Source: Pelagicoccus sp. SDUM812003 | GTDB lineage: Bacteria; Verrucomicrobiota; Verrucomicrobiia; Opitutales; Opitutaceae | Assembly: GCF_031127815.1 (NCBI RefSeq) | Contig: NZ_JARXHY010000004.1 | Coordinates: forward strand, 248,001-312,000 | Reading direction: 5' to 3' | DNA: 64,000 bases | Shown: piece by piece, positions 198 to 57,300 of the stretch | Layout of the letters: each line of letters opens with the position of its first letter | Position numbering within the stretch: position 1 is the first letter of the stretch | The notes under the pieces: generated by a model | Seen by the model: the letters and a program-made list of their open reading frames with translations, nothing else | What the model was told of the DNA's origin: nothing | Databases searched by the model: none | Made by a program: the position numbers and the translations under genes

Positions 198-668
198 ATG
201 CTCCCTCTCAAACCCTCTCGCATAGCTGTTTTCATTTTGCTCGTCGCGGCGTCACTTGTCGCCTTGCACGGTCGAGCCTCGATCTTTTCCTCGCCCGAGA
301 CGGACGACTACTTCACCGACGACGGCACCGTGCCTCTGGCCTGGGCCGCGACCACCGAAGGGGACGAGTTCGAGGTGCGCCGTTGGCAGGCTGGTGGCGA
401 CCCTCAAGGCGTGCTTGTCTACCAGGGAGGGGACACCGCCAGCTTCCTTTCCGGACTGCCGGAAGGTGTATTCGAAATACGGGTACGATCTCGCGGTCAA
501 GGCGAGCCTTTTCCCGAGTGGGAGGACGCCCATTTGCGCGTCACGGTCGACTACAAGGACATGCGAGTGGTGGCGGCGCTCATGGGAGCGGGTTTTCTGA
601 CCTTTATCGCAATCGTGGCGACCATCGTGGTCGGGCACCGGCGGGCTCTGCGAGAGGCCGCAAAATAG
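198..668 (+). CDS. Small membrane protein with an FN3-like domain
   Basis: 156 residues. An uncleaved anchor or signal peptide spans about residues 8-26. A single beta-sandwich of fibronectin-III type follows (VPLAWAATTEGDEFEVRRW, then GVFEIRVRSRGQGEPFPEW). A second hydrophobic segment lies near residues 122-147, with a basic tail (HRRALREAAK). The start at 198 is preferred over the upstream ATG at 48 because it places the hydrophobic N-terminus first, and the 48-197 stretch has no protein-like features. It sits 71 bp before a sodium:solute symporter on the same strand. Function is not known; the domain probably faces the periplasm and may assist the symporter, which is inference from position. 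Confidence 0.6.
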   Translation: MLPLKPSRIAVFILLVAASLVALHGRASIFSSPETDDYFTDDGTVPLAWAATTEGDEFEVRRWQAGGDPQGVLVYQGGDTASFLSGLPEGVFEIRVRSRGQGEPFPEWEDAHLRVTVDYKDMRVVAALMGAGFLTFIAIVATIVVGHRRALREAAK

Positions 669-739
669 CGCATGGCGACTAGAGATCGAAGAAGCCCCGT
701 CTTGAACCTCCTTTTCCCGAATCCCTGACGTTTCATCCT

Positions 740-2164
740 ATGCATCAAAACGAAACAGTGCTCAATCCCACCCTTGGATGGACCTTGTTGGCCATTTTCG
801 GCATACTCTGGGTCGCGCTCGGGCTTTTCTGGGGCCGCCGCGCCAAGAGCCTGGAAGGCTTCATGCTGGCGGGCAGAAACGTGGGCCTGGCCCTCGGCGC
901 CGCTACCGCCATGGCGACCTGGGTGACTTCCAACACCATCATGGTGGTGCCGCAGTTCGGTCTGAAGATGGGAGTTTGGGGCCTGCTGGCCTTCACCACG
1001 GCCAGTTTCGGCCTGTTTCTTTTCGCCCCTATGGCGTCTCGGATCAGATCGCTGATGCCTAAGGGCTTCACTTCGGGGGATTTCATTCGCTTGCGCTACG
1101 GCCGACCCGCTTGGGCCATCTTTCTGCTAATCTCCTTCTGCTATTCCATGGCCTGGCTCGTTTCCATGGCTATGGCCGGCGGCATCGTCCTAGAGGCCTT
1201 GGCTGGCATCGACTATCTCTATGGCATGAGCATGATCCTGTTGGTCTGCGTCATCTACACCTTGGTCGGCGGTCTGTACGCGGTGATCGGCACTGACTTC
1301 ATTCAGAGCATTATTATCCTTCTCGGAATCGTTATCGTAGGCGTGACGGCCTTGAGTAAGATCGATCTGGATACGGCTTATCAGACTGCGACGCGCACCC
1401 AGCCGGCGCTCTTCAACGCCTTGCTCCCGGTGGCTTTGCTTTCGCTGTTCAACAACATGTTCTTTGGATTCGGCGAGGTCTTTCACAACAACGTCTGGTG
1501 GAGCCGCGCTTTCGCCATGCGCAAGACGATCGTATCCAAAGCTTTCGGTTTGGCTGGCTTGTTCTGGCTGCCGATTCCTCTGGCGGTCGGCTTCGGAGCT
1601 CTCTTCAGCAACAGTCTTGGTATCAACATTACGGATATAGACATGACCGGTCCCTTGATCGCGGGTAATCTGTTGGGATCCGCTGGCGCCGTTATCTTGT
1701 TCGTAGTGGTGTTCTGTTCCCTCGGTTCCAGCATTGACAGCTTGCTCGCGGCTACCTCGGACCTGCTGGCGGAGGACGTTTATAAAAAGATGTTCAATCC
1801 GCAGGTCAGCGACGAGACGCTGCGTCGCGTTTCCACCGGGATCATCATCGGGCTAGGGCTGGTCACTTGGCTGATCTGCTTGCCCAATATCGGAAACCTC
1901 ATGACGGTGCTCTTTTTCGCAGGACCGTTTGTCGGCAGCACGATCTGGCCGGTCATCACCGGGCTGTACTGGCGCAAGGCCAATCAGATCGGAGCGGTGC
2001 TTTCGATGCTGCTAGGGATCAGCTCCGGCATGTATGCGTATTTTGGACACGGATGGTACACGGCATCGCTTGTGGCGACCGTGGTATCCATGATTACTAC
2101 TTTTGCTTCCGTGGCGCTCTCTCGAACGGAATTCGATTGGGAGCTGCTGAATGAAAAACACTAA
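740..2164 (+). CDS. Sodium:solute symporter (SSS family)
   Basis: 474 residues, very hydrophobic, with about 13 predicted membrane segments, the normal size and pattern for the SSS family (TC 2.A.21). Family-like stretches include SLEGFMLAGRNVGLALGAAT near the N-terminus, VGGLYAVIGTDFIQSII in the middle and FCSLGSSIDSLLAATSDLL in the second half. Family members use the sodium gradient to import sugars, amino acids, ureides or nucleobases; the substrate cannot be read from sequence. The gene is followed after 14 bp by a 41-residue membrane peptide, and then by carbamoyltransferase, AsnB, aminomutase-like, carbamoylase and amidase genes. It therefore probably imports the substrate or product of that pathway (inference). 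Confidence 0.9.
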   Translation: MHQNETVLNPTLGWTLLAIFGILWVALGLFWGRRAKSLEGFMLAGRNVGLALGAATAMATWVTSNTIMVVPQFGLKMGVWGLLAFTTASFGLFLFAPMASRIRSLMPKGFTSGDFIRLRYGRPAWAIFLLISFCYSMAWLVSMAMAGGIVLEALAGIDYLYGMSMILLVCVIYTLVGGLYAVIGTDFIQSIIILLGIVIVGVTALSKIDLDTAYQTATRTQPALFNALLPVALLSLFNNMFFGFGEVFHNNVWWSRAFAMRKTIVSKAFGLAGLFWLPIPLAVGFGALFSNSLGINITDIDMTGPLIAGNLLGSAGAVILFVVVFCSLGSSIDSLLAATSDLLAEDVYKKMFNPQVSDETLRRVSTGIIIGLGLVTWLICLPNIGNLMTVLFFAGPFVGSTIWPVITGLYWRKANQIGAVLSMLLGISSGMYAYFGHGWYTASLVATVVSMITTFASVALSRTEFDWELLNEKH

Positions 2165-2178
2165 CCCCTAAAAATGAA

Positions 2179-2304
2179 ATGATCTTATTTCCGGAATCCA
2201 TCGTATCGGGGCTGATCGTGGGCGCTTTGTGCCTCACGGGCATAGCCATCGTTTCGTTGATCGCTATGATCATCAAGGACTATCTAACAAAGGACGTTTG
2301 GTAG
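2179..2304 (+). CDS. 41-residue single-pass membrane peptide, likely symporter accessory protein
   Basis: ATG at 2179, TAG at 2302-2304, 41 residues. The peptide is one hydrophobic helix (about residues 8-32, IVSGLIVGALCLTGIAIVSL) with a short charged C-terminus (KDYLTKDVW). It lies 14 bp after the symporter stop, and the carbamoyltransferase ATG follows one base after its stop, so the three are almost certainly co-translated. Short one-helix proteins placed directly after sodium symporters are known as small accessory subunits; this one fits in size and position. No strong ribosome binding site is visible, so coupling to symporter translation is likely. The role is inferred. Confidence 0.65.
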   Translation: MILFPESIVSGLIVGALCLTGIAIVSLIAMIIKDYLTKDVW

Positions 2305-2305
2305 A

Positions 2306-3400
2306 ATGAGCGACAAACTAGAGTTAAACAAGCGTGCCGAGTTCCTTTCGCCTCCCGATGGGGTGGAAACGCTCAGGCCCGAGCCTAATAGTCTTTTTGA
2401 AAACAACCCCGTGCGGCTGTCCGTGCTGCGGGCTTTGGAAGGACGCTCCATCCTTTCGGTGAAGGACTTCACTCGGGAGGAGGTGATCGAAATCGCTAAG
2501 CTAGCGGCGATCTTGGAGAACTTCGAGATCGCGCCTTACCACATCATGGACGGCAAGATCGTCACAACCGCCTTTTTCGAGGCGAGCACTCGGACCCGGC
2601 TCTCTTTCGAAAGCGCCGTGCTGCGCCTCGATGGGAAGGTGCTTTCCATCCCCGAAGGCGGGGTGACCGGCGTGCGCAAAGGCGAGTCGCTGGACGACAT
2701 CGGCATGATGTTCAACGCCTATTGCGATATGGTGATCATGCGGCATACGGAGACGGATTCGCTGGAGCGCCTGACGAAGGGGCTGCGCGTTCCGCTTATC
2801 AACGCCGGCAATGGAAGCGGGGAGCATCCTACCCAGTCTCTCGCAGATTGGTACGCCCTGCTCAAGTGGCGCCCTAAGCTGGCCGAGACGGATCCAAGCA
2901 AGCGGAGCAAGAAGCTCTGTCTTGGGATTTTGGGTACGCCAGGCAGCATGCGCGCCGTGAAGAGCTTTCTTCTGATGTCGCTGATGTTCCAGGATCGGAT
3001 CAGCAAGGTCATCGTGATATCTCAGATGGCGGATCCCTTTGGGGAAGACTTGGTGACTGAGCTCGAGAAAGCGGGTATTCAGTACAAGGTTACGAACAAC
3101 ATGAAGAAATACGTGCCCAAGCTGGACGTTATCTACATGAACTCGATCGCGTTTCTAGGGGACAGCTACAAAAATCTCGATGCCGAGTTCCAGCTCAACA
3201 AGGAAAGCGAGTTGAAGGAAGAGGCGGTTATATTGCACCCGTTGGCTCGGCTTAGCGAACTGGACAAGTCTCTCGACGACACGGCTCACAATCTATACTT
3301 CTCGCAGGCGCATGGAGCCGTTTTCGTACGGCAAGCCCTGCTCATCGCAATCAGCGGTCGTCTCGATCGCTTGCCAAAGGAAATTCCGGTCGTCGACTAA
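2306..3400 (+). CDS. Divergent aspartate/ornithine carbamoyltransferase homologue
   Basis: 364 residues, about 50 longer than catalytic PyrB because of an N-terminal extension (residues 1-45). The carbamoyl-phosphate site is intact: STRTR at 94-98, K125 in the 80s-loop equivalent, R146 (MRH), HPTQ at 174-177, R216, and HPLAR at 311-315 (PyrB has HPLPR). The loop that binds the aspartate carboxylate in PyrB (TRVQ, Arg229/Gln231 in E. coli) is replaced by NSIAFLGD around residues 279-286, so the acceptor is probably not aspartate. The next gene is an AsnB-type amidotransferase 81 bp downstream and no other pyrimidine genes are nearby. Best reading: it carbamoylates another amine (family knowledge plus inference). 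A degenerate PyrB cannot be excluded. Confidence 0.8.
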   Translation: MSDKLELNKRAEFLSPPDGVETLRPEPNSLFENNPVRLSVLRALEGRSILSVKDFTREEVIEIAKLAAILENFEIAPYHIMDGKIVTTAFFEASTRTRLSFESAVLRLDGKVLSIPEGGVTGVRKGESLDDIGMMFNAYCDMVIMRHTETDSLERLTKGLRVPLINAGNGSGEHPTQSLADWYALLKWRPKLAETDPSKRSKKLCLGILGTPGSMRAVKSFLLMSLMFQDRISKVIVISQMADPFGEDLVTELEKAGIQYKVTNNMKKYVPKLDVIYMNSIAFLGDSYKNLDAEFQLNKESELKEEAVILHPLARLSELDKSLDDTAHNLYFSQAHGAVFVRQALLIAISGRLDRLPKEIPVVD

Positions 3401-3481
3401 GTGGCCGTTTCCTTCTCACCGCTACGGTCCATGAGCTCCGCTTGTGGACTGCCGAAGCTAACTCAGGAATAAGATACCTAA

Positions 3482-5458
3482 ATGTGTGGAATAGCAGGAT
3501 TTTTCTCAGCAGCGCCATTGTATCCAGAAGACGATGCCACCTTGTCTCGAATGCTGGATACGATCTATCATCGGGGACCCGATGGAGAGGGCGCTCATAT
3601 CGATCATGCTCGAGGAGTAGCCATGGGGCACACTCGACTGTCGATTATCGACTTGAACACCGGCGAGCAGCCGATCTTGAGCAAGGACGACCGGTTGGCG
3701 CTCACCGTCAACGGCGAGTTCTACGACTTCAAGAAATATCGATCCCACGCCATGGCGGAAGGAGACCGGTTTCGCTGCAAGTCGGATAGCGAGATCGCGT
3801 TGAGCTTGTATCGAAAATATGGATTGAGCTTTGTCGACCACCTGCGCGGAGAGTTCGCGTTCGCTCTCTACGACAAGGAGCAGGACCAGATGATTTTCGT
3901 CCGAGATCGATTCGGCATCCGTCCGCTGTTCTTTCACAACAATGGTGAGATGCTGGTTTACGGTTCCGAGGTCAAGTCGGTCATCGCTCATCCCAAAGTG
4001 CCGAAGCGCCTATGCCGCAAGGCCGCCTTGCATCAGCTGATGCAGACGATCAAGCCGGGGACTTCCGCCTTTGAGGGAGTCGTCGCTCTGGAGCCGGGAC
4101 ACATGATGGTCGTGAAGCGACGTAACGGAAAACTGGAGACGAACGTACGAAAGTACTGGGACCTCGATTTTCCAGAAGTCGACCAGCGCGATGCCTTGCT
4201 GACGGAGGAGGATCACATCGAGCGGATTCGCGAGAAGCTGATCGAATCGATCGTTTTCCGTTTGGAAGCGGACGTGCCGGTTGGTTGCTACCTTTCGGGC
4301 GGGATCGACAGTTGCTGCATCCTTGGCTTGGCCAGCGGGGCCATGCAGAGTCCGGTCAAGGCCTTCACCATCAGCTTCGACGACGACAAGTACGACGAGG
4401 CCCACATCGCCAAGGAGATGTCCGACAGCATGGGGGCGGATCAGGAGCAGATAAACCTCAAGGCTGCCGACCTGTATGGGGAGAACTATATTCGTACGGT
4501 GTGGCATGCGGAGCGTACCTTTTACAACACCCTTGGTGTAGCTAAGTACCTCATGAGCAAGCGTGTCCGCGAATGTGGATACAAGACGGTGGTTACTGGC
4601 GAGGGCGCGGACGAGCTTTTCGGCGGGTATCCGGCGTTCAAGCGCGACATGTTCCTCTATGGACTGGAAACGGAGGATCCCAAGGAGCGCGAGCGCTTGC
4701 AGGGCTTGCTCGACGAATCGAACAAGCTGTTCAAGGGCGCCATCCTCGCCGAGAATCGCTTGCGTCACCCGGCGTTCGAAGAGCTGTGCGGTTTTACTCC
4801 TTCGTGGATTCAGCCTTGGATGGCTACGCTGGAGCTGGCGCGGCCGCTCCTCAGCGACGATTCGCTGGAGGAGATCGGTGACTACGACCCGATCGAGCAG
4901 ATCGCTTCCAAGATCGATGCCAAGATGCTTCTGAACCGTCACCCGCTGGACAAGGCTCAGTACACCTGGAGCAAGTGCCAGCTGGAAGGTCAGATCTTGA
5001 ACTGGGGCGGCGACCGCGTGGATATGGCGAATTCCATGGAGTCTCGTCCGGCTTTCCTCGACCACCATCTAGCAGAAGCAGCCATTCAGGTGCCGCCGAA
5101 TCTGCGCATCAAAGGGAATGTCGAGAAATGGGTCCTGCGCGAGGCCGTCAAGGGCGTGCTTCCCGAGGTGCTATACAAGCGCGAGAAGTTCGCCTTCATG
5201 GCCCCGCCCGCCCATACCAGTCCGGACAAGTTGGCCAAGGTGAACGAGCTGATCGAGCGATTCCTGAACCCGGATAGCGTACGGGAGGCTGGCATCCTCA
5301 GTCCGGAGCGCACCGAGACTTTCCTCAAACACTATCGCGAGGACAAGGACCCGATCTCCCTGACGCGAAAGGATACGCTCCTCAACCACCTGATTTGCCT
5401 GCAGATCATGCACGACAAATTCATCGAAACGGAGGCAGCATATGGGAAGCCGAACTGA
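3482..5458 (+). CDS. AsnB-type glutamine-dependent amidotransferase (asparagine synthase family)
   Basis: 658 residues with both domains of the asparagine synthase family. The N-terminal class II glutaminase has Cys2 as nucleophile (MCGIAGF), R52, NGEF at 78-81 and D102. The C-terminal ATP-pyrophosphatase has the SGGIDS loop at 272-277 and TGEGADELFGGYPAFKRD further on. Members activate a carboxylate with ATP and transfer ammonia from glutamine to make an amide; many act on substrates other than aspartate. A purine-rich AGGAATAAG precedes the start. The 3' end overlaps the radical SAM gene by 17 bp. Given its company (carbamoyltransferase, aminomutase-like enzyme, carbamoylase), it probably amidates a dedicated metabolite rather than supplying general asparagine. 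Confidence 0.9.
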   Translation: MCGIAGFFSAAPLYPEDDATLSRMLDTIYHRGPDGEGAHIDHARGVAMGHTRLSIIDLNTGEQPILSKDDRLALTVNGEFYDFKKYRSHAMAEGDRFRCKSDSEIALSLYRKYGLSFVDHLRGEFAFALYDKEQDQMIFVRDRFGIRPLFFHNNGEMLVYGSEVKSVIAHPKVPKRLCRKAALHQLMQTIKPGTSAFEGVVALEPGHMMVVKRRNGKLETNVRKYWDLDFPEVDQRDALLTEEDHIERIREKLIESIVFRLEADVPVGCYLSGGIDSCCILGLASGAMQSPVKAFTISFDDDKYDEAHIAKEMSDSMGADQEQINLKAADLYGENYIRTVWHAERTFYNTLGVAKYLMSKRVRECGYKTVVTGEGADELFGGYPAFKRDMFLYGLETEDPKERERLQGLLDESNKLFKGAILAENRLRHPAFEELCGFTPSWIQPWMATLELARPLLSDDSLEEIGDYDPIEQIASKIDAKMLLNRHPLDKAQYTWSKCQLEGQILNWGGDRVDMANSMESRPAFLDHHLAEAAIQVPPNLRIKGNVEKWVLREAVKGVLPEVLYKREKFAFMAPPAHTSPDKLAKVNELIERFLNPDSVREAGILSPERTETFLKHYREDKDPISLTRKDTLLNHLICLQIMHDKFIETEAAYGKPN

Positions 5459-6788
5459 CTACTTGAATACGGACAAAGGGGCGTCCGTTCGGGCCGGCAT
5501 TCGGGACACCTTTCTCGAACAGGTTGCGGACTTAGACGTGCGCTACCAGCGTGGCGGCGTGAGCCGACTCTCCGCTTATGCGAAATCCGACGGTGACAAG
5601 CGGCCGCAGAGGCCGCTCTACAGCCCGGAGGAAGCTCGCCGGTTGATCGAGCTCGGAGTCGAGCAGCGCATGAAGGTCAAGATCAGCGACCACTACAATG
5701 CTCTGGTGCAGGGTAGCGGCAGCATGCCTCCAAGCGAAGCTCTGGCGAACCTCGTCACGGCGCGCGGCGAGGAAGTGGCCGACCTCTCCGGCGAGATCGA
5801 CCCCAGCAATCAGCTCGGCTATAGCCCGTTGCCAGGAGTGCTGCACAAGTACGAGATGGCTCTGCTGTACGTAGCGAAGACCTGCAGCGCCCATTGCCGC
5901 TACTGCTATCGATCTGACCTCTTTTCCGGCATTTCCGGAAAGCAGCTGGCCAAGATCGATCCAGTTGTTGAATACATCGAAAACCACAATGATCAGGTCG
6001 TCAAGAACGGCGGCAAGCATCCGAAAAGCGGTCACCCTGCGTTGAAGGAGGTCTTGTTGTCCGGAGGCGATCCAATGATCCTGAGCAACAAGAAGCTCGC
6101 CCAATGGCTGAGCGCGCTTGCGGATGCCGGTATCCAAAAGATAAGGATCGGAACCAAGGAGCTCGCATTTTTCCCTCAGCGTTTCGACGACGCGTTCTTC
6201 GCCATGTTGGACGCGTTTCACGAATACTACTCAGACACGCGCATCGTGTTCGCGACTCACTTCACGCATCCGGACGAGTTTCTGTTTCGCGACGAGGAAG
6301 GAGATCCGTGCGATTTGGGAAACGGAAGGCTCGAATGGCTTTCGCCGGTGTACAACGCGGTAGCCCATCTAGGCGAACGTCGACACTTCGTTTCGCTGGA
6401 AAACCAGACGCCGATCATCCGCGACGTGAACGATGATGCGAAGGCCCTGCGCGTTCTTCAGCGCGAGCTGTACGCCCATGGAATTGGGAACCACTATTTC
6501 TTCCAATGCCGACAGATCCAGGGCTTTCGAGCCTTCGCGATTCCGGTGGAGGAGACGCTCTCGATCTTCAACGAGTCCAAGCGCGGCCTCTCGGGTGTGG
6601 AGAGTCACGCTCGGTTGGTGATGTCGGCGGAAGAAGGGAAGATGGAGATCTGCGGCGTGGCGGGCGACCAGATCGTTTTTCGCCGTCTACGCGTACCTGG
6701 CGCCGCTGAAGAGCAAGGTAGGCTCTACATCGCTCCTCGCAATCCCGACGCGTATTGGATCACCGACTACGATTTGAAATCCACCTAG
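5442..6788 (+). CDS. KamA-type radical SAM enzyme (lysine 2,3-aminomutase family)
   Basis: 448 residues. The CX3CX2C cluster motif is at C148, C152 and C155 (CSAHCRYCYR), with SGGDP at 207-211. R157 matches Arg134 of clostridial lysine 2,3-aminomutase, which binds the substrate carboxylate. K400 (EEGK) matches the PLP lysine. Asp293, which holds the lysine side-chain amine in that enzyme, is replaced by R357 (QCRQIQG), and the Asp330 region is not acidic (LVMSAEE). The substrate is therefore probably an amino acid with an acidic or amide side chain, as in glutamate 2,3-aminomutase (inference from alignment by eye). GGAGG at 5431-5435, six bases before the ATG inside asnB, shows coupled translation. 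Confidence 0.85.
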   Translation: MGSRTDYLNTDKGASVRAGIRDTFLEQVADLDVRYQRGGVSRLSAYAKSDGDKRPQRPLYSPEEARRLIELGVEQRMKVKISDHYNALVQGSGSMPPSEALANLVTARGEEVADLSGEIDPSNQLGYSPLPGVLHKYEMALLYVAKTCSAHCRYCYRSDLFSGISGKQLAKIDPVVEYIENHNDQVVKNGGKHPKSGHPALKEVLLSGGDPMILSNKKLAQWLSALADAGIQKIRIGTKELAFFPQRFDDAFFAMLDAFHEYYSDTRIVFATHFTHPDEFLFRDEEGDPCDLGNGRLEWLSPVYNAVAHLGERRHFVSLENQTPIIRDVNDDAKALRVLQRELYAHGIGNHYFFQCRQIQGFRAFAIPVEETLSIFNESKRGLSGVESHARLVMSAEEGKMEICGVAGDQIVFRRLRVPGAAEEQGRLYIAPRNPDAYWITDYDLKST

Positions 6789-6810
6789 CGACTGAAACGG
6801 AAGGGAAACC

Positions 6811-8049
6811 ATGACTTGTATTGATATCGAACGTTTGAAGCGGGACTTTTTCGAGCTTTCCGAAATCGGAAGGAACGAGGAGGACCGAGGCATCTACCGG
6901 ACCGCGTTTTCGGAGGCCGATATGGAAGGGCGAGCATGGTTTCGCTCCAAGCTGGAAGAGATCGGCCTGGAGACGCGCGTCGATGGAGCGGCAAACGTTT
7001 TCGGCCGTCTCAAGTCTTCGGATACGAAAGCGAAGACGGTTATCGTGGGCTCGCATCTCGACACGGTGCCCTGCGCGGGGGCTTTGGACGGGAGCCTAGG
7101 CGTTCTGGTCGGCCTGGAATGCCTGCGGGTCTTGAAGGAGCGTGGCGAGACGTTCGATCGCCATCTAGAGGTGGTGGCATTCAGCGACGAGGAAGGGCGG
7201 TTCGGAGGGATGTTTGGATCGCAATCGGTAGTCGGCTCGGTGACTCCGGAAACCTTGGAGTACTACAGCGACCAGGAGGGATGCACGCTGGGCGAAGCTA
7301 TGAAGCGTCGCGGGCTCAAGCCGTTTGACGCGTTGGACGCCGCCCTGGATCCGGCGGATATAGAAAGCTACCTGGAGCTGCATATCGAGCAGGGACCGGT
7401 GCTGGACAACCTACGCAAGTCGGTGGGCATCGTGGAAAACATCACCGGCCTTTTCAAGTGGCTCATCAAGATTCGCGGCACCGCGAATCACGCCGGCACC
7501 ACGCCGATGGAGATGAGACAGGACGCCTTCATGGGGCTCGCCGACTTCGCCCATGAGATCCCTCGCATCCTAGAGGAAAACGGTTCGGAGCTCAGCCGGG
7601 CTACCATCGGGCGGGCCCAGATCCTGCCCGGAGCCCCGAACACCGTGCCTGGTCTGGTGGAGCTGACCATCGACGTTCGCGACACTTCGAAGCAGATCCT
7701 GGAGGAGCTCGGGGAGGCGTTTCACCGGGCTCTGTCGGCGATCGCGAGGCGCCGGAAACTGATGTTCGACTACGAGATCCAAAGCGTGATCGAGCCTACG
7801 CAGTGCCACCCGGAGATCGTAGATTCCCTAGAGTCGGCGGCCAAAGAACTCGATCTCAACTACTTGCGAATGCCAAGCGGAGCGGCCCACGATGCCCAGA
7901 TCATGGCTCAGCTGACGCGGGTGGGCATGATCTTCGTGCCGAGCAAGGACGGGAAGAGCCATTCTCCCGCAGAGTGGACCGCGTGGACCGACATCGAGTC
8001 CGGAGCGAATCTGGCCTTGCATGCCCTCAAGCGAATGGCAGGCGCCTGA
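6811..8049 (+). CDS. M20-family Zn hydrolase, hydantoinase/carbamoylase type
   Basis: 412 residues, the usual length for the L-carbamoylase / beta-ureidopropionase / allantoate amidohydrolase group. Metal ligands are readable: H82 and D93 (GSHLDTVPCAGALDG), E127/E128 (DEEG), H191 (ELHIEQGP) and H384 (KDGKSHSPAEW). Dimer and substrate-site features are H227 (HAGTTPM), N277 and R290 (GAPNTVP, IDVRD) and H360 (SGAAHDAQ). These enzymes hydrolyse N-carbamoyl amino acids or ureides to the free amine, CO2 and ammonia. The gene starts 22 bp after the radical SAM gene behind a good GGAAGGG site. In this cluster it could reverse the carbamoyltransferase step. The exact substrate is unknown. Confidence 0.85.
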   Translation: MTCIDIERLKRDFFELSEIGRNEEDRGIYRTAFSEADMEGRAWFRSKLEEIGLETRVDGAANVFGRLKSSDTKAKTVIVGSHLDTVPCAGALDGSLGVLVGLECLRVLKERGETFDRHLEVVAFSDEEGRFGGMFGSQSVVGSVTPETLEYYSDQEGCTLGEAMKRRGLKPFDALDAALDPADIESYLELHIEQGPVLDNLRKSVGIVENITGLFKWLIKIRGTANHAGTTPMEMRQDAFMGLADFAHEIPRILEENGSELSRATIGRAQILPGAPNTVPGLVELTIDVRDTSKQILEELGEAFHRALSAIARRRKLMFDYEIQSVIEPTQCHPEIVDSLESAAKELDLNYLRMPSGAAHDAQIMAQLTRVGMIFVPSKDGKSHSPAEWTAWTDIESGANLALHALKRMAGA

Positions 8050-8095
8050 GGCGAAATCCGTTTACCTATCTATCGTTTTGAAACAAACCGTTCGC

Positions 8096-8824
8096 ATGCA
8101 CGAAGACCCACTCAAAACCGTCTATCACGAGTCGATCGTCGATAATCCCGGGCATTTCAGCCAGCTGATCAATCACAACACCGCCTTGCTTTGCATCGAC
8201 CTGCAGTATCTGGACGCGGTGGAAGGCTATGGCGTCTTTCGCGATCCGGAGACCTCGGGCGTACCCAAGGAAGGGCGCGACTACTACTTCAGCCGCCTGC
8301 AAAACACGGTGCTTCCCAACGTGCGCAAGCTGCAGGAAGCCTTTCGCGAGAATCACCTGGAAGTAGCGCATACCCGGATACAAGCTTTGACTCGTGACGG
8401 ACGCGACCGCAGCGCTGGCCACAAGCGACTCAATCTGCTGGCGGCCCCCGGTTCGCAGGAAGCCAAGTTTGTGGAATCGGTGGCTCCCGCTGGAGACGAG
8501 GTGGTGGTGAACAAAACCGCGAGCGGGGTGTTCTCGTCCACAAATTTCAACTACGTTCTCGCGAACATGGGCATCAACGCCTTGTTTGTCTGCGGCGTCT
8601 ATACCAACGAGTGCGTGGAAACGACGGTGCGGGCGGCGAGCGATCTCGGGTTTTTCGTCACCATGATCGACGATGCCTGCGCCACCGTGACGCCCGAGCT
8701 GCATCAGGCCAGCATCGCCACGCTCAAGGACCGCTACGCCCGCGTGATCACAACCGAGGAAGCGTTGGAAGACATCGAGCGCTTCGTGCATGGTCAAAAC
8801 GTTTTCGAGCGTTCGCAGGGGTAG
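8096..8824 (+). CDS. Isochorismatase-superfamily cysteine hydrolase (amidase or carbamoyl amidase type)
   Basis: 242 residues from the ATG at 8096. An earlier in-frame ATG at 8021 would overlap the M20 gene and adds residues with no family match. The catalytic triad is D35 (LLCIDLQ), K140 (VVVNKTASGVF) and C173 (CGVYTNECVETT). The superfamily includes nicotinamidase, N-carbamoylsarcosine amidohydrolase and ureidoacrylate amidohydrolase (RutB), all of which release ammonia from amide or carbamoyl groups. As the last gene of the cluster it probably hydrolyses an amide or carbamate made or taken up by the pathway. The N-terminal 30 residues are polar and not part of the core fold. No strong ribosome binding site was found. 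Confidence 0.82.
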   Translation: MHEDPLKTVYHESIVDNPGHFSQLINHNTALLCIDLQYLDAVEGYGVFRDPETSGVPKEGRDYYFSRLQNTVLPNVRKLQEAFRENHLEVAHTRIQALTRDGRDRSAGHKRLNLLAAPGSQEAKFVESVAPAGDEVVVNKTASGVFSSTNFNYVLANMGINALFVCGVYTNECVETTVRAASDLGFFVTMIDDACATVTPELHQASIATLKDRYARVITTEEALEDIERFVHGQNVFERSQG

Positions 8825-8887: not shown

Positions 8888-10195
8888 CTAGTTGTCGCCC
8901 CATCCGCCCCATGGATCCTCATCCTGGGAGGGGAGCTGCGACTCCTTCGCTCTGGCCTCGATCCCCAGAATGGTCATGTCGTCCTGGGCGTCATCGCTGC
9001 GGCTAAACGCTGCCAAAGCGGCGTAGACCGCTTCGATGCTGTTTTCCAGCGAGAGACCTCGGGTCGCGGCGAGGGTTTCGCAAAAGCGCTGCATGCCGTA
9101 CTCCTCGTCACGATCGTTGACGGTTTCGAGGAATCCGTCGGTATAGGCGTAGAATCGGTCTCCGGGGCGAAGCTGCGCCTTGTGCGAACTGCGCTCCACT
9201 AGGTCGAGTAGGCCGACGGCGAAATCTCCGTTTTCCAGCAGCTCGTAGCTGCCATCCTTGCGCACGATGACTCCCGCAGGATGGGCCGCGTTGGCGTATT
9301 CGAGCTCCACCGATTCGGTGGACTCATCGTAGCGGGCGGTTGCGGAGATGGCGGTGAAGAAGCCGTTTGGAATCTGCCCGTAGAATTCCATATCGAGGTA
9401 GTTCAGAAAATAGCCAGGCAAGGCGCGGACTTCCTCGGGGGCTTCCTGGGAAATGTATTTCAGGAGGGCCATGAACAGAGCGGCGGTGACGCCATGACCG
9501 GTCAGGTCAGCTAGGAGCAGGGAGTAGGCGTCGCCATCCAGATTGCGAAAGCTCATGTAGTCGCCGCCGACCTTCTCCATGTAGCGGTAGCGAAACGCCA
9601 CGTCGAGAAAGGCGCAGGGCTCGGCTCGCTTTCCGAGGAGGAACTTCTGAATCTGTCGGGCTGAATCGAGATCGAACTCGATGGTCTTGTTTCGCTCTTC
9701 CAGTTCCTTCTCGTGAGCGAGGATCCTGCGTTCCGATTCGCGGTGTTCGGTCACGTCCAGATAGGTCACCAGAATGCCGGCGGGTTTCTGGTCGTGGCCT
9801 TGGAGGGGGATGCGGCTCACGATGAGGTTCGCCGATCTGCCATCGGGCAGGATCGCTTCGACTTCCCTATCGAGGGCCGGTTCGCCGGTGGCCAGGACTC
9901 GGGAGTCGTCGAGCTCGATCTGGCAGTTTAGCGGGCCGGAGAAAAGCGCTTCTTCGGCGCTGCCGACGGGGTGCTGGTCGCGCTCGCACGGTGGCAGGCC
10001 AAGCAGGGAGAGCAGACGTTTGTTGCAGCCGCGCACGCGTCGGCAGCGATCCTTCCACAACGAGGCGATGGGAAGGTCCCTATGCATGGCTTCGTAGTGC
10101 TGGGCGATGCTGGTAAGCGTGGGGGTTGAGTGAATCGCTTGCTCCACTCCTAAGAGATCGGTACCGATCGCCGACAGTTTGCTGGCGAGGCGCAT
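8888..10195 (-). CDS. PAS domain plus SpoIIE/RsbU-type PP2C phosphatase
   Basis: 435 residues from the start at 10195 (MRLASKLSAIG); an upstream in-frame ATG at 10300 adds an arginine-rich stretch that looks non-coding. Residues about 40-160 resemble a PAS sensor ending in VTYLDVTEHRESERRI. A short coiled linker follows (KELEERNKTIEFDLDSARQIQ). The C-terminal domain is a SpoIIE-type serine phosphatase, with metal-site motifs VGGDYMSF, ADLTGHG and YTDGFLE and the closing QDDMTILGIE. Such proteins usually dephosphorylate an anti-sigma-factor antagonist in a partner-switching cascade; no partner gene is visible nearby. It points away from the upstream cluster (63 bp between convergent stops) and lies divergent from an AraC regulator. 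Confidence 0.82.
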   Translation of the reverse strand: MRLASKLSAIGTDLLGVEQAIHSTPTLTSIAQHYEAMHRDLPIASLWKDRCRRVRGCNKRLLSLLGLPPCERDQHPVGSAEEALFSGPLNCQIELDDSRVLATGEPALDREVEAILPDGRSANLIVSRIPLQGHDQKPAGILVTYLDVTEHRESERRILAHEKELEERNKTIEFDLDSARQIQKFLLGKRAEPCAFLDVAFRYRYMEKVGGDYMSFRNLDGDAYSLLLADLTGHGVTAALFMALLKYISQEAPEEVRALPGYFLNYLDMEFYGQIPNGFFTAISATARYDESTESVELEYANAAHPAGVIVRKDGSYELLENGDFAVGLLDLVERSSHKAQLRPGDRFYAYTDGFLETVNDRDEEYGMQRFCETLAATRGLSLENSIEAVYAALAAFSRSDDAQDDMTILGIEARAKESQLPSQDEDPWGGWGDN

Positions 10196-10390
10196 TTTTA
10201 CACTACATTCGCTAGAGCCTGGCTCGGGCAGGCGGCGAATCGCTCCCCGGCGGAATGAGCTACCCCTCTCCGCCGATCTCGGCCGCAGGCGCGTTTTCAT
10301 CGTCGGCGATTGTCGGCGCGCCTCATCGACGCTTGCCAGTTGCCTTTTCGTTTGGCCGATGGTTGGATATCGCCACGTTTTACCCCTACC

Positions 10391-11395
10391 ATGAGCGAGC
10401 GAACCCAGCAGGCTGCCAAACCCGAACTGTTGATCGGAGGATTGCTAACGAGCAAGGACCGTGTCGAGATTTTGGAGACGCTAGAGAAACGTATTCACGA
10501 CGCCGAATACAACGCGTTGTCCCTTAAGATCCCGCGGGACGACGGACGGCTGCAGAAACGGCCTGGCATGCACTTTCATTTCAAGCCGGAAATCTTTATC
10601 CAGATCTCCGGTTTCACCGAATTCTCGGTGCCTGGCGAAGTGCTGACGGTCCGTCCGGGAGACGTGTGCATCATGCCCGCCGGGGTGCCGCATCAGGAAA
10701 CGATCTACTCGCAGAAGGGGGCTTCCTTTCGCAACCTCGTGGTCGGCTTCTACAGCAATGCCATTAGCGTGCACCTCGCCTTCGAGGTCGAACCGCACAA
10801 ACCCGAGATCGATGTCATCGCGTTCTACGACGCCCCGAACTTGGATGTGTTTCTCACCTTGGCGAACTCTTTGGTGAACAACTACCACAAGCGAAAACCC
10901 AGTCGGGATCGCATCGTCAAAGGCCTCTCCATCGCTTTGCTTTCGATGGTTAAATCCTTGGTGGAAACGGGTAGCGACGGACTCAATCAAGACATCGGCA
11001 AGGTGTTCCAGGTGAAGTGGCTGGTGCGCGAGCAGATCTCCAACGCGAAGCTCAACGTTAAGACCTTGGCGGACCGCTTGAAGTGCTCGCCCGACTACTT
11101 GTCGCATCTCTTCATCCAGCAGACGGGAGAGAAGTTGACCCACTATATCCAGCGTATCCGCATCGAGGGAGCGGCCTTGGCCTTGCAGACCACGCCGCTC
11201 TACGTCTCCGAGATCGCCTGGTCGAGCGGCTTTTCCGACCCGGCCTATTTCGCTCGGGTATTCAAGAAGTTCATGAACGTGACCCCGCAGGAATACCGGG
11301 CCCAGCGCGAGGAAAAACGCCGCCAGGAGGAAGCCGCCCCGAAAACGATCTACTACGATCGCGAGGACTACTCGGCAGGAACGCCGCATCGCTAG
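10391..11395 (+). CDS. AraC-family transcriptional regulator with N-terminal cupin domain
   Basis: 334 residues from ATG at 10391. The start at 10310 is less likely because it adds a stretch without family character. The N-terminal half has a cupin-type sensor (PGMHFHFKPEIFIQISG, then RPGDVCIMPAGVPHQE). The C-terminal 100 residues are a double helix-turn-helix (LNVKTLADRLKCSPDYLSHL and VSEIAWSSGFSDPAYFARVF) followed by NVTPQEYR, the standard AraC signature. A charged tail follows. It is divergent from the phosphatase gene and convergent with the maltodextrin locus. It could regulate either that locus or the ureide-like cluster; the sequence does not decide. Confidence 0.88.
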   Translation: MSERTQQAAKPELLIGGLLTSKDRVEILETLEKRIHDAEYNALSLKIPRDDGRLQKRPGMHFHFKPEIFIQISGFTEFSVPGEVLTVRPGDVCIMPAGVPHQETIYSQKGASFRNLVVGFYSNAISVHLAFEVEPHKPEIDVIAFYDAPNLDVFLTLANSLVNNYHKRKPSRDRIVKGLSIALLSMVKSLVETGSDGLNQDIGKVFQVKWLVREQISNAKLNVKTLADRLKCSPDYLSHLFIQQTGEKLTHYIQRIRIEGAALALQTTPLYVSEIAWSSGFSDPAYFARVFKKFMNVTPQEYRAQREEKRRQEEAAPKTIYYDREDYSAGTPHR

Positions 11396-32593: not shown

Positions 32594-35500
32594 CTACTCC
32601 GTTGGGCCGGTTTGGAGAGGAGTTTCTTCCAAATAGATGCTCGGCGTATCGGCGGTACCGTTTCTTACGAGTCTCCAGCGAAAGAACTGGCCGGTGGAGC
32701 TCGAATTTCCCGATACGATCTCGGCTCGATACGAGAGGTAGTTTTCCGTGGAATCTTGGAGGGTAAGGGTGGGGCGCGTCAGATTCCACTCGACCAAATC
32801 CAAGCTGCTTTCGAAGACCATGGAGGATGCGCTGCTACGGGCGAGCTGGTAGTCCAGGGTGGCTTTCGCTTCGCCGCTTGGGGAAAGCGTGACTTGGAAC
32901 GCGGGAATGGGATCGCTGCGGAGCGGATGGAGGTTGAAGGTGTATTCCAGCCAGTTGGGGATAGAATCGTTGTCTAGGTCTTCCTGTTGCCCGAGGTGGG
33001 AGGAGGGAGCAAGGATGTGTTGAGAACCGAGATCGCTTCGCCACTGCTCGTACGAATAGGCAGCGAGAGGGGAGATGATCAAGCGATCGATGGCTTGGTA
33101 AGCGCTGGAGGGTTCACCCGCCGGCTCATCGTTGCTTTCCTTGACCCGTATATTGAAGGCGCGAGACTCGCCGGCCGCGATGTAGCCCAGCGGACGGAAA
33201 GTCCAGTCTGCGGCCCTTTCGACTTCGTCGAGTTCGAACCCATCTCCTTTGATGTAGTATCCCGCGATCGCGGGGCCGTCGATTTCGATCCTAAGGCCGC
33301 TCTCCTGTCCGTTTCCGATTTCACCGGAGCGGAGGCAGCTCGGCCCCGCGACGCTTTGAGATTCGTCGATGCCCCACAAGGCATGGCCCCATGTGCCAAG
33401 GCGAACTCCGGGGAAATCGATGGCTAGGTCGAAAGGAAGCTTCAGCAAGGAAACGGTAGCGACTTCGCTGTAGGTTTCGCCCCCGGCGCTTTCTATTGCG
33501 ATGGCTTGATAGCGTCCCAGGTCGTCGAGGGAAAGGTCTTCGATCGATAGGAAACCGTCTTCTCCGCCGGCGATTTTTCGACCATTCTTTTCCCACCGAT
33601 AGGATAGGGGATTGATCGGGCTCAGGGCCTCGGCCCGCAGTGAAATGCTGTCGCCAAGAAAGGTGGCGTGGCTCATTGGCTGCTGCTCGAAACGCACGCG
33701 ATCGTCGAGAGCGACCTTATCGATGAGCACGCGAGCGTTCGGGTTGTCGTTCGATGGGATAAAGACGTAGCAATCATCCAGATCGGAGGAGATCGAGACT
33801 TCGGTCCACTCTGTTGGAGGAGGAAAACTGCTTGTCATTCCTCGGCCAATGGATACGGAGAACTCGTCGTTCGGATCGAAGCCGACGGTCTTCATCCAAA
33901 GGCTTTTCGCATTGTATGAGAACTGGAACGGAGCCTGTTCATCGGAAAACGGTCCAGCGATGGAAAGAGACGAGCCGCCATGGACGAAATCCTGGTAGTC
34001 GTAGCGGCTGCCGCTGGTCAGACCGTAGAGGGAGTAGATGGGGGCATCGAGAACGGCGCTGTAGGATTCGATGAAGGCGACGCTCATGGGGGCGGACTCC
34101 ACGGTAGCTCCGACGGCGTCCGTGACGGTGCAGGTGTACTCGCCTTCCTGGTTCTTGTTGGGAGCTGTGGAAAACAGTCTGTGGATACCAGAGCTTTGGT
34201 TTGACTCGGTTAAAATGAGTTCACCGTTTCGGTACCACTCGAGAGAGAGCGGCTCGATACCGCCGACCGCGATGAATGGCGGTTCGTTGTTATCGAAGCT
34301 TTCAATTTGAACGCCGTAGAACTCGGCTTGACTGGTGATGATGGGATCGCTTTGGGTCCAAATGCCGTAGAGCTTTGACCAACCTGTATTCGACCCGCCG
34401 GAAAGGGATAGAGTGATGGTGTTGCTGTCGCTAGAAAGTGAATACGCGGAAAGGCCTCTTTCACTGTGGTCGCCGAGAGCGTAGGCTTTTCCGTCTATCG
34501 TGATGGAGGCGTCGCCGAGGTTGCCTTGGTAGTCCAAAACCAGCACTCCGGGTCCGCTCGCTTGAGCGGCGAGGGAGACGCTTTGGCCGTTTTCCAGACG
34601 CGCTTGGAAGTAGGGATGGCCGGTTTCCGGGTCGGTCTGGCTGGAGTCTATGAACTCGCTCCCTTCGATGGCGAAGTCGACGTTTGAGCCGATACCGTGA
34701 GCCAGCGACGGTATTCCCTCTAGCTGTGCTTTCTGGGTCTGAGCGGAGCCGAAGGAGTTGCTGCCCCGTAGATGGTAGGATGCGATATCGCTCTCGGAGA
34801 ACTCCTCGATCACGAGCTGACGTTGATTCGCTCCCGGGATTTCCTGGTCATCCTTGAACCACTGTAGAGCAAGCTCGGGGCCGGTGATTTCCGCTTTGAG
34901 GCATACTCTGCTCCCAAGGGCCGGCAGGTCGTGAGCGATCTCATGTAGGATCGCAGGTCGCTTCGTGGGTAGGTATTGATCTACCCATGCGGTCACGGGG
35001 CCGGAGGTGGAATGAAGGGTGAAAACGGTGGCTTGAGAAAGCTCTCCTGAGGAAAAGAGAAACTCTTGCCATTGGCCGGTTCCCACCAGGGTTTTCGAAA
35101 AGAGCTCTCCTCGAGAAACCACGAGACGAGTGCCCAGGTCGCTCTTCCAAAAGAAGCTAACGTTGGTATTGGGAGGCGTTCCCATGACGTGGAATTCGCT
35201 AGCTTGAGGCGCGAGCCCATCGTGAGTGATCTCTAGAGCGTCGATGCCATCGCGAGTGACCGTGGATTGGCTGCGAACGTCTATCCTTCCTATTGTGTAG
35301 TCATTGGTCGAATACACAACATACCGGTTCGCGTCGATCGCCTCATTCAGGGACGAGAGTACGTGCAAGGTCGTTTCATGGCTGGTGATGGTGCCGAATC
35401 GATTGCTGATTTCCGCGAAATAGGTTCCGGAGTCTTCGATCTTGGGAGCGCGTATTGGGAGGAGGTTGCCAAGTTCGCTTTTGGGGAGCTCCACTCCATC

Positions 35501-54373: not shown

Positions 54374-57300
54374 CTATCGATCGCTGAGGACCAGCCGTAT
54401 CAGGGCGGGATCCGAGGGGAGCTGCTGGAAACTGATTCGGGCCAGACGGGCCTGCCCTGCGACATCGACGGCGCCGGGCGTCAAGGCCTCCAGGGAGTAG
54501 GTGCTCCAATCGACGCCGCCGGTTTGATCGTCCTTTTTTCCGATTTGCAGAGCGAGCGACGCGATCGAGGTGCGGCTAGGAAGGTATGCCATGAGAGACA
54601 GGGCGCTGGCCGAGTCGAATCGCGGTTCATGTTCGGGCAGCTCGCCTCGCAATTTCACGATCGATTGGGGACCGGGACCCGAGGCGGGCTGGTCCATAAA
54701 ACGCTGCTTGAAAGCTGCGAGCAGTTCCGAATCGCTGAGATCGCTCTCGATCGCCCATATCCGAAAATCGAATACGCCTGGATTTGTGCCTAGAAGAAGC
54801 TCCCGCTGGTTTTGCACGCCGTCGCCGTCTAGGTCGCCACTGCTGGTGAACTGCGTGCCTCGAGCGAAGGACCTCAGTGGGACGGCGGCCTCCAGCTTGA
54901 GCTTGAAGGCATCGCTTTGTTTCTCGGGCGTGAAGGTCAAGTTGTCGAGGTGGACGGTTCCGATCCAGTAGTAGTTGATCGAGGTGGAAACGATTGAGAC
55001 GAGTCCGCCGGAGGATGGAATGTTGAGGGAGTAGTCATTTCCGTCCCAGAGGGTTTCGATGATCTGCCCGTTGATTCTCACCTCTCCAGGGAACGGTTTG
55101 AAGTCCCATTCCCTTCGGTATCCAAAACTCAATACGCCGCCTTGGTCGAGGTCGAGATGGATGGCCGAATTGACAAGGGTCAGGTCCATGCCTTGCGACA
55201 ATTCGGAACCGCGTGTCACCGTAAGATCGTTTTCGTAGTCGAAGATGTAGAAGAGATCGCTCTTCTGCATTTCCTCGACAGGCCCCCGCTCGAGCGGGAA
55301 GACTTGTCCGACGAGGTGATCGCTCACGGTGAAGGTGAGAGGCAGCGTCGCGGCTGCGCCGAACGTATCGATGAATACCGGAGCGTCGAGATCGTAGACC
55401 TCCGCCTTTTCGCCCCAGTCCACGGTGATCTGATCGCCTGCTTTATAGGACTGCTTTTCTGGCGCGATCGAGAGCTTGTGGTAGTCGCTTTGCACCGTCA
55501 GGTCTACCTTCAGACCCGGCACGTAGGCGACCGGAGCTGCTTGCAGTCGAGTTGACTGAGAAAGGTGCAGGCGCTGCTTGCCTGCTGGAACGAGAAAATA
55601 GGAATGCCCGCTGGAGGTTTGGGTCATCTTCTGCAGTCGGCCGTTGATTCTGAGTTCGGGGTTTCGATCGAGATTGGTATCGAATGGAAGAGCGAGACTG
55701 CCAGGTCCTTCGACGACGGTGGTGTAGGTGTAGCGATCGTCGATCTGATGAAGCAGTGTCCACTCGCTACCAGTGTAACCAGAAACTGATGACGCGGAGA
55801 CCAACGCGCTCACCTCGGTGTGTTGACTGATGGTCAAGGTCAGCGGGTTCTGGGCGCTCGAGGCGTCGCCAGTCCACTGCTGAAACGAAAACCCGTCGAA
55901 GGGGCGGGCGAAAAGCGTCACCTGCTCTCCTCTGGTGTAGTAGGGCTTCTCCGGGTACAGCGTGACTGCAGCGTTCTGAGCTGTGGCGGATAGCGTGTAT
56001 CCGTTTATCAATTGCACGTCGTTTATGACGCTTTCCCAGCGATCATCGGTAGCGCTGTAGATCAATTCCACGGTTTTCGTTCCAGCTGGGATCGTGAAAT
56101 AGGAGGGGGTGGACTGGTTGTGTCTGGGGTGGGCGACGAGATAGCTCTCGTTTCCGATCCGGACCTCGACGTTCGCTTCGAATTGCAGATAGGCATCGAC
56201 CATGAGCACGGCGGGTCCTTGCACCTGTTTGGTGAAGGTGATGGGGCCTTTCTTCAGCAGGATGCGACCGTTTGTATCGAGTTCGCTCGGGGGGTCGAAT
56301 TGAGGCACTTCGCCTGTGGCGGTCAGACCGAAGGGCAGTCCCGCTTCCTCTTCCTCCGGTAGGCCGAAGAAGCCGATCGCTGGTAGCGGAGTATTCACCG
56401 ACTCCGTGATGGAGAGTTCGTAGGTCTCCTCCGGAGTGAGCCAAACGTGAAACGCTTCGGGGGAATCGGGGACCGCCTTGAGGGTCACGCTCCCGCTTTG
56501 AGAAACGACGCCGTTGACGGGCTCGATCTGAATCTGACCCGGTCCGAAGGATATGAAAGGAGCCGCGTACCCGGATATCGTTTTGATCGAAGAGATTCGG
56601 CTCGTTTCGTAAAGAACGCCACCGTCCGCGATCGTGAAGGAGATAAAGGTCTGGCCGACCGGGACGGGGAGCCCGACTCGCATCCACTCGCCGAGCCCTT
56701 CGACCGGGATAGGCACGCCTGGCGACAGCGTTTCGAAGAGCGCATAGTCGCCCTCTGGGAGGTAGAGGTAGAAGGTGACGAACTTGTCGCCCGCCGTTTC
56801 GATGCGCACGATGGAGTCCGGATCCAAGGCCTTGCTCGTAGCCCCCGTAGGGTCGAGCTCGTTGGATGGACGATTGGCGCTGCTGGGAATGGTGGTGAGC
56901 AAGCCCTTGGAGCGGACGAAGGATGGGCCGACGTTTCCGGTGACGAAGGTATCGCCCTTGATCGTCACTTGATATTGGCGCACGAAATCCGAGCTCTCCC
57001 ACTTCGTTTGCGAGTGGTCGAAGGAGGAGGTGACCAAGTTGCTGAATACCGAGCTTTGCGGTACCGATGACGCCAGCGAGATGGTTACTTTTTCGCCCCA
57101 GGCGTAGTCCTCCTTGGCTGGCGTGACCAGCACGTTCTCGGTTTGCAGGCCGAAGTCGCCGGTAAGGGAGAACCGATTGCGGGTCAGGGCGTTGACGATC
57201 GAGAGGCTTTCGCTTGAGTTCGCATCGATCTGAACTTCCAGCTTGGCGGATCGCGCGGTCGTGGACGGGGCGAGGGCGATGGTGGAACCCGCATAGACGA

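Follow-up and report, generated by a model that had tools for sequence, protein, structure and literature searches.

A divergent carbamoyltransferase and an AsnB-type amidotransferase as the core of a candidate N-carbamoyl amino-acid amide cluster in Pelagicoccus and other bacteria

We analyzed a 64,000-nucleotide stretch of the genome of Pelagicoccus sp. SDUM812003 (contig NZ_JARXHY010000004.1, positions 248,001 to 312,000; here called the window) and characterized a gene cluster at its left end whose core is a divergent carbamoyltransferase (CT) and an AsnB-type glutamine-dependent amidotransferase, often accompanied by an M20-family amidohydrolase and an isochorismatase-fold amidase. We consider it likely that this cluster makes some N-carbamoyl amino-acid amide, and we lean toward N-carbamoyl-glutamine amide (CGA), a compound of 188.09 Da, as the product. 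We give even odds to a wider proposal, in which CGA, or a compound close to it, would serve marine and saline bacteria of at least six phyla as a common nitrogen-rich osmolyte that has so far been overlooked. The CT-AsnB pair would make this compound, and a new three-part sodium symporter, composed of a sodium/solute symporter (SSS), an FN3-like protein, and a miniprotein of about 41 amino acids, would exchange it between cells.

Conservation of the CT-AsnB pair

A scan of a genome collection with a CT alignment provided the best 80 of 132 relatives, down to 53% identity; together with the window, loci L015, L017, and L018, and 37 gammaproteobacterial loci (17 plus 20), these make up a set of 121 loci (designated L; genomes are designated G). 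Loci were chosen by CT, which is therefore present by construction, and all counts come from related genomes, not independent events. Genes were scored as neighbors if they lay within 12 kb of CT and encoded proteins with at least 45% identity to the window protein (at least 35% for the KamA-like protein). AsnB is found on the same strand as CT in 118 of the 121 loci, in at least six phyla, a synteny that is far beyond chance; SSS is near CT in 103 loci, M20 in 83, the amidase in 80, and KamA in 1. The 80 scanned loci include AsnB in 80, SSS in 78, M20 in 44, and the amidase in 40, and the corresponding numbers among the 37 gammaproteobacterial loci are 34, 21, 35, and 36. The gene set that the first-pass annotation had described in the window therefore recurs in other genomes. 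In two of the three loci without a neighboring AsnB (L141 and L212), the contig breaks off; in the third (L222, genome G815), AsnB lies ∼0.7 Mb away and is 83% identical to the AsnB of genome G776, and neither M20 nor the amidase was found in the stretches fetched around the CT and the AsnB of this genome. Some absences of SSS also reflect contig ends, as L082 is cut and L039 holds only a fragment. The placement of M20 and the amidase is variable; they occur downstream, upstream, or divergently, or were not found.

CT carriers belong to the Verrucomicrobiota, Bacteroidota, Planctomycetota, Myxococcota, Calditrichota (one metagenome-assembled genome), and several lineages of Pseudomonadota. Of 387 genomes from the window's phylum, 7 encode CT (its own included), as do 19 of the 321 that were sampled from the class to which Nitrosomonas marina belongs (N. 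marina itself included). The host genome is 5.75 Mb in size, and the nearest relatives of its CT come from named Pelagicoccus in the Verrucomicrobiota.

This distribution bears on an alternative raised in the first-pass annotation, namely the degradation of an imported ureide; in this case CT would run in reverse to yield carbamoyl phosphate. A transporter, M20, and an amidase would suit uptake and catabolism, and catabolic carbamoyltransferases exist, but this alternative fails to explain the linkage of CT and AsnB in loci where M20 and the amidase were not found nearby, such as those of Nitrosomonas and Sphingobacterium. Moreover, genome G815 keeps both CT and AsnB even though they are far apart, the nine Ectothiorhodospira loci described below have no transporter, and AsnB-type synthesis spends ATP and has, to our knowledge, no obvious catabolic role. 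We regard ureide degradation as very improbable.

Several loci show departures from the usual architecture of the core. In two Bacteroidota loci, a gene for a protein of 965 to 970 amino acids lies between CT and AsnB (L076, 11047 to 13941; L098, 11040 to 13949); the L076 protein has an interrupted M20 carbamoylase-like domain, preceded by an N-terminal part without a family match. Apparent frame breaks are present in the AsnB of Rhodopirellula baltica strain BR-MGV (L085, ∼12650), the CT of G779 (L211, ∼10390), and both AsnB and M20 of L130 (∼1950 and 7115), and these may reflect sequencing error or decay.

A carbamoyltransferase without the aspartate-binding residues Arg229 and Gln231

The CT gene (2306 to 3400, + strand, like all genes of the cluster) encodes a protein with the aspartate carbamoyltransferase (ATCase) fold, as judged both by sequence and by an AlphaFold model (1ml4, E value of 7.9e-25). 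AlphaFold models were used for CT and the FN3-like protein, where they confirm the folds and nothing further. We mapped the residues of all 121 CTs onto the numbering of Escherichia coli PyrB, in which we take Ser52 to Thr55, Lys84, Arg105, His134, and Gln137 to contact carbamoyl phosphate, Arg167 to contact a carboxylate, and Arg229 and Gln231 to bind aspartate. All eight of these carbamoyl-phosphate residues that were checked, together with Arg167, are kept in 120 to 121 of the 121 proteins. Position 229, in contrast, is serine (94 proteins) or alanine (27), position 231 is alanine in 117 of 121, and residues 233 and 234 are deleted in all; in addition, Thr228 is replaced by asparagine and Pro268 by alanine, each in 120 of 121. 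Because Arg229 and Gln231 are lost while Arg167 is kept, CT should carbamoylate an amine without a side-chain carboxylate. We predict a neutral amino acid, probably L-glutamine, as its substrate, carbamoylated at the alpha-amino group.

The best NCBIfam match of the window CT is to aspartate carbamoyltransferase (TIGR00670), at 182.7 bits against a cut-off of 236.95. The same genome has a separate PyrB that exceeds this cut-off (339.3 bits), as well as a separate ornithine carbamoyltransferase (OTC) over its NCBIfam cut-off, in agreement with the earlier view that CT is not an ordinary PyrB. A quick phylogenetic tree built with 47 of the 121 CTs placed all of these on one side of a branch that separates them from eight PyrB and OTC references with SH-aLRT support of 100, and demonstrates a deep split between two main CT clades. 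CT also matched 35 records in a plasmid collection; among the 20 matches listed, the best identity was 35.3%, most of the annotated ones are called pyrB, and five were used as tree references.

The amidotransferase and the two hydrolases

The AsnB-type protein (3482 to 5458) exceeds the broad asparagine synthase cut-off (TIGR01536; 411 versus 267 bits) and lies below that of the amidotransferase model for N-acetylglutaminylglutamine amide (NAGGN) synthesis (TIGR03104; 287.7 versus 570.1 bits). In a second quick tree (LG+G4, with several long reference branches), for which 45 of the 118 AsnBs were used, a branch with SH-aLRT support of 100 sets all of these apart from nine references, and their clade includes neither E. 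coli AsnB nor the other AsnB-like protein of the Pelagicoccus genome. The enzyme is predicted to amidate the alpha-carboxyl group of an N-carbamoyl amino acid.

A more mundane explanation would be that CT and AsnB are an ordinary PyrB and asparagine synthetase that are neighbors by accident; the AsnB score over the asparagine synthase cut-off and the best match of CT to aspartate carbamoyltransferase would be in keeping with this. However, CT falls below the TIGR00670 cut-off and has no aspartate-binding residues, PyrB is encoded elsewhere, and both proteins form clades of their own, and on these grounds the PyrB and plain asparagine-synthetase readings are disfavored; we find such an accident scarcely credible.

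The M20 protein (6811 to 8049) belongs to the hydantoinase/carbamoylase family of amidohydrolases, as it exceeds the cut-offs of TIGR01879 (368.6 versus 204 bits) and PRK09290.1-5, but its scores do not reach the equivalog cut-offs for ErtE and AllC. We predict that it removes a carbamoyl group. The isochorismatase-fold amidase (8021 to 8824; PF00857, 7.9e-36) has biuret amidohydrolase, PRK11440, and RutB as its nearest NCBIfam models, all below cut-off, and is predicted to remove a terminal amide. As listed, its open reading frame (ORF) overlaps M20 by 29 bp, and an alternative ATG at 8096 may be the true start.

Among the protein pairs compared, pairwise distances correlate most strongly for CT and AsnB (r of 0.80, 45 loci) and for M20 and the amidase (r of 0.81, 36 loci), with values of 0.58 to 0.73 for the other five pairs tried. 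None of 2,000 permutations reached any observed value, and shared ancestry alone could give the same result. Such a pattern is expected if one pair makes the product and the other unmakes it, and we tentatively read CT-AsnB and M20-amidase in this way. The original description of a dedicated gene set, equipped with a transporter of its own, that is predicted both to add and to remove carbamoyl and amide groups is supported.

In the pathway that we propose, CT would carbamoylate L-glutamine at its alpha-amino group, with carbamoyl phosphate as the donor, and the AsnB-type enzyme would then use a second glutamine and ATP to amidate the alpha-carboxyl group of the resulting N-carbamoyl-glutamine, yielding CGA. 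Upon down-shock or when nitrogen is needed, the amidase and M20 may strip off the amide and carbamoyl groups to return glutamine, ammonia, and CO2. Scavenging or recapture of the solute would fall to the sodium symporter together with its two small membrane proteins, and the MarR regulator would control the cluster.

Occurrence in Ectothiorhodospira

The 1991 report of CGA concerned a single genus, in which Ectothiorhodospira marismortui uses it as a compatible solute (Galinski and Oren 1991, cited by PMC1224877). CT is present in 41 of 47 genomes of one family, which we infer to be the Ectothiorhodospiraceae. All nine Ectothiorhodospira-type genomes (G771 to G779) share the gene order M20-amidase-CT-AsnB, with MarR next to M20, upstream, and without a symporter. 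The high-potential iron-sulfur protein (HiPIP) of G778 matches PDB 1hpi at 71 of 71 residues; we take this entry to be the HiPIP of E. vacuolata, for which the reference list of PMC5439954 includes a 1994 structure. G775 and G776 have GC contents of 68.9 and 68.8% and a mutual identity of 92.7% (20-kb stretches), which match E. mobilis and E. marismortui (68.3 and 68.2% GC and an average nucleotide identity of 92.6, according to a passage of PMC8877833); therefore G776 (L208) is very probably E. marismortui. G779 appears to be Ectothiorhodospira sp. BSL-9. The first-pass annotation had named CGA as a candidate osmolyte, and this suggestion gains support because the cluster occurs in the CGA-producing genus and, by our assignment of G776, in the known producer species itself. 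No gene had been assigned to CGA in the literature that we searched, with most subscription journals outside that search. None of five gene words occurs in the main text of an R. baltica salinity transcriptome, and "carbamoyl" and "asparagine" are absent from the text of a salt study of T. versutus, passages of which follow glycine betaine.

One of the 19 CT carriers of the N. marina class, the phototroph G556, belongs to this family, in which all 11 phototrophs carry CT. Its local GC content is 55.6%, and an assignment to Ectothiorhodosinus mongolicus would fit, a species whose GC content lies ∼7.3 points from that of E. lacustris (passage of PMC10224512). In a genome survey, this species is listed without betaine and ectoine synthesis, and CGA is among its candidate solutes (relevant passages of PMC7824335).

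Several observations weigh against CGA as the product and against its role as an osmolyte. The amidotransferase is over the asparagine synthase cut-off, as noted above; M20 is not near CT in 38 of the 121 loci and the amidase is not in 41, some of them cut by contig ends; and CT is present in just four of the eight sampled genomes of the window's own genus, its own included. The analysis establishes protein families, synteny, residue changes, phylogeny, and occurrence in the CGA-producing genus; the substrate, reaction order, product, and physiological role of the cluster are inferred, as are the identities of the key-family genomes. Some carriers, such as Sphingobacterium and Chitinophaga, are presumably not marine. 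Ectothiorhodospira also makes glycine betaine, and CGA-type solutes are described as only accompanying betaine in marine and halophilic species (both from passages of PMC7824335). R. baltica carries the cluster, and passages of a nuclear magnetic resonance (NMR) study of this species under salt and nitrogen shifts report sucrose, glutamate, trehalose, and mannosylglucosylglycerate (MGG) and no carbamoyl compound (PMC3694870); the cluster was read in strain BR-MGV, in which AsnB has the frame break noted above and which may not be the strain of that study.

A further point against a single product is the divergence of CT itself. The second-substrate loop reads NSIAF in the clade of the window CT and NAIAW in that of Ectothiorhodospira (Ser280 versus alanine and Phe283 versus tryptophan), the two clades are deeply split, and identity between the window and Ectothiorhodospira CTs is 41.6 to 45.5%; therefore the amino acid could differ. 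Asparagine, alanine, or glycine, for instance, might take the place of glutamine in the N-carbamoyl amino-acid amide that the cluster makes, or clades might differ in substrate, with CGA made only by the gammaproteobacterial one. When the window is compared with the nine Ectothiorhodospira loci, however, M20 and the amidase are better conserved than CT, with identities of 55.5 to 59.0% and 61.9 to 63.3%, respectively, and as these two enzymes must fit the same product, their conservation argues against a change of amino acid. We consider such a change unlikely, while giving it some weight, and continue to favor CGA.

The transport module, MarR, and osmotic neighbors

The symporter gene (740 to 2164; PF00474, 2.1e-26) is preceded by the gene for the FN3-like protein (198 to 668), a predicted transporter accessory with an N-terminal hydrophobic helix and a C-terminal membrane helix. 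The window copy of this protein matches no Pfam or NCBIfam family, and its AlphaFold model has an FN3 fold (best E value of 3.9e-3). It was identified, anywhere in the locus, in all 97 SSS-bearing loci with more than 500 bp upstream of SSS and in none of the 18 scored loci without SSS, two of which (L039 and L082) are truncated where their contigs end. Position 198, from which the first-pass annotation had counted the cluster, is the first base of this gene.

Between the symporter and CT lies a gene (2179 to 2304) for a single-helix membrane miniprotein of 41 amino acids with a terminal tryptophan, whose window copy has no Pfam or NCBIfam match at 1e-3. Hydrophobic ORFs of 28 to 75 amino acids are present in 100 of 102 SSS-CT gaps, compared to 16 of 510 letter-shuffled gaps (one gap of more than 700 bases was left out), and the terminal-tryptophan pattern is found in 99 of the 102. 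A tryptophan-ended miniprotein of ∼41 amino acids is thus conserved across phyla between symporter and CT.

The 3′ end of a MarR-family regulator gene lies at positions 1 to 160, with its start left of the window (11489 to 12160 in L013). MarR homologs are present in 46 of the 121 loci, including all nine of L203 to L211, and both this regulator and the FN3-like protein belong to the cluster as two further parts besides those first named. Possible osmoregulatory neighbors are found in minorities of the 121 loci, MscS matches in 12 and BCCT transporters in 9, numbers for which there is no random-locus control; domains were checked for nine of these proteins, and L095 counts in both groups. Eight of the 12 MscS matches (two of them partial) begin ∼350 bp or less downstream of AsnB on the same strand.

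These neighbors are relevant to the possibility that the product serves mainly as a nitrogen store or overflow sink, that is, a nitrogen-rich neutral amide formed in times of nitrogen plenty and mobilized by the amidase and carbamoylase. Such a role would be in line with the four nitrogens that the product would hold and with the presence of ammonia-releasing hydrolases near the making enzymes (M20 and the amidase in the 83 and 80 loci counted above). The MscS and BCCT genes, within the limits just stated, point instead to osmoregulation, as do the MarR regulator, which has a counterpart in the NAGGN operon, and the description of CGA as a compatible solute. Many named CT carriers are, we assume, marine or saline, which we also count in favor of an osmolyte. 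Storage as the main function is in our view quite improbable.

The KamA-like protein and other neighboring genes

The genes between 198 and 8824 are open, co-directional, and closely packed, as the first-pass annotation had it, and five of their products (SSS, CT, AsnB, M20, and the isochorismatase-fold protein) exceed curated Pfam cut-offs. A KamA-like radical SAM protein (5442 to 6788), whose gene overlaps AsnB by 17 bp, has no Pfam match at 1e-3; it matches PDB 2a5h at 2.1e-19 and six KamA-type NCBIfam models below their cut-offs (TIGR00238, 118.6 versus 199.2 bits, and five others likewise). The CxxxCxxC motif is present as CSAHCRYC in the window protein, and the three cysteines are also found in the relatives in G026 and G211. 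KamA is near CT in the window genome only, three congeners carry the same cluster without it, and we rejected it as a core pathway step; it is a local accessory. With a single occurrence in 121 loci, the earlier idea of a KamA step that gives a beta-amino acid also falls. Across the phylum, KamA-like proteins were found in 3 of 387 genomes, its own included, and the same query had no match at an E value of 1e-30 in 26 other CT-bearing genomes. In G026, a 6.1-Mb contig carries both KamA and CT, with 2 Mb or more between them. In G211 (L020, 512 to 4743), the KamA relative lies beside genes that by eye resemble CoA-transferase subunits and an aminotransferase, which suggests a possible role in amino-acid breakdown.

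To the right of the cluster, the window encodes a SpoIIE-type phosphatase and an AraC regulator (8888 to 11395), which were not found in the stretch fetched around the clusters of the three congeners, where MFS and malQ genes follow the cluster. Elsewhere in the window, on the − strand, are genes for a 1,953-amino-acid protein in which immunoglobulin-like domains come after a subtilase domain (32594 to 38455) and a 2,037-amino-acid protein with InlB B-repeat-type domains (54374 to 60487).

Implications and comparison with known systems

If the assignment holds, CGA, until now an orphan osmolyte, would gain biosynthetic and recycling genes, its reach would widen beyond one genus to several phyla, and there would be reason for caution in annotating such proteins as aspartate carbamoyltransferase and asparagine synthase. 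The comparison of clusters has also brought to light a conserved symporter-linked miniprotein.

SSS symporters with small membrane partners are known, namely, PanF-YhdT and ActP-YjcH. The cluster resembles these in that the gene for a small membrane protein adjoins the symporter gene, but its partner has ∼41 amino acids and a terminal tryptophan and is joined by an FN3-like protein; no specific family match was recovered for the copies of the miniprotein and FN3-like protein that we scanned. The M20 protein is over the family cut-off like the M20 carbamoylases related to ErtE and AllC, but below the equivalog cut-offs of those enzymes, and it is linked to a carbamoyltransferase. CT shares its fold and carbamoyl-phosphate site with PyrB but is without Arg229 and Gln231, has positions 233 and 234 deleted, and is encoded by a gene other than the genome's PyrB.

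The closest parallel in overall organization is the NAGGN operon (AsnO-Ngg-aminopeptidase, with the MarR regulator PA3458), in which AsnO forms the amide of N-acetylglutaminylglutamine and a MarR protein is the repressor (passage of PMC8070244). In both systems, an AsnB-type enzyme amidates, or in our cluster would amidate, an N-capped glutamine compound, a hydrolase is encoded within the operon, and there is a MarR regulator; the annotated NAGGN locus of Azospirillum lipoferum further has an adjoining mechanosensitive-channel gene. The cluster differs in that the N-cap would come from a carbamoyltransferase instead of Ngg and no dipeptide would be formed, and its amidotransferase is below the NAGGN model cut-off and in another clade. 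No Ngg synthetase is present among the cluster genes, the part of the genome in which it was sought. Finally, the alpha-N carbamoyl group and C1 amide of the CGA of E. marismortui are the groups that CT and AsnB would add to glutamine.

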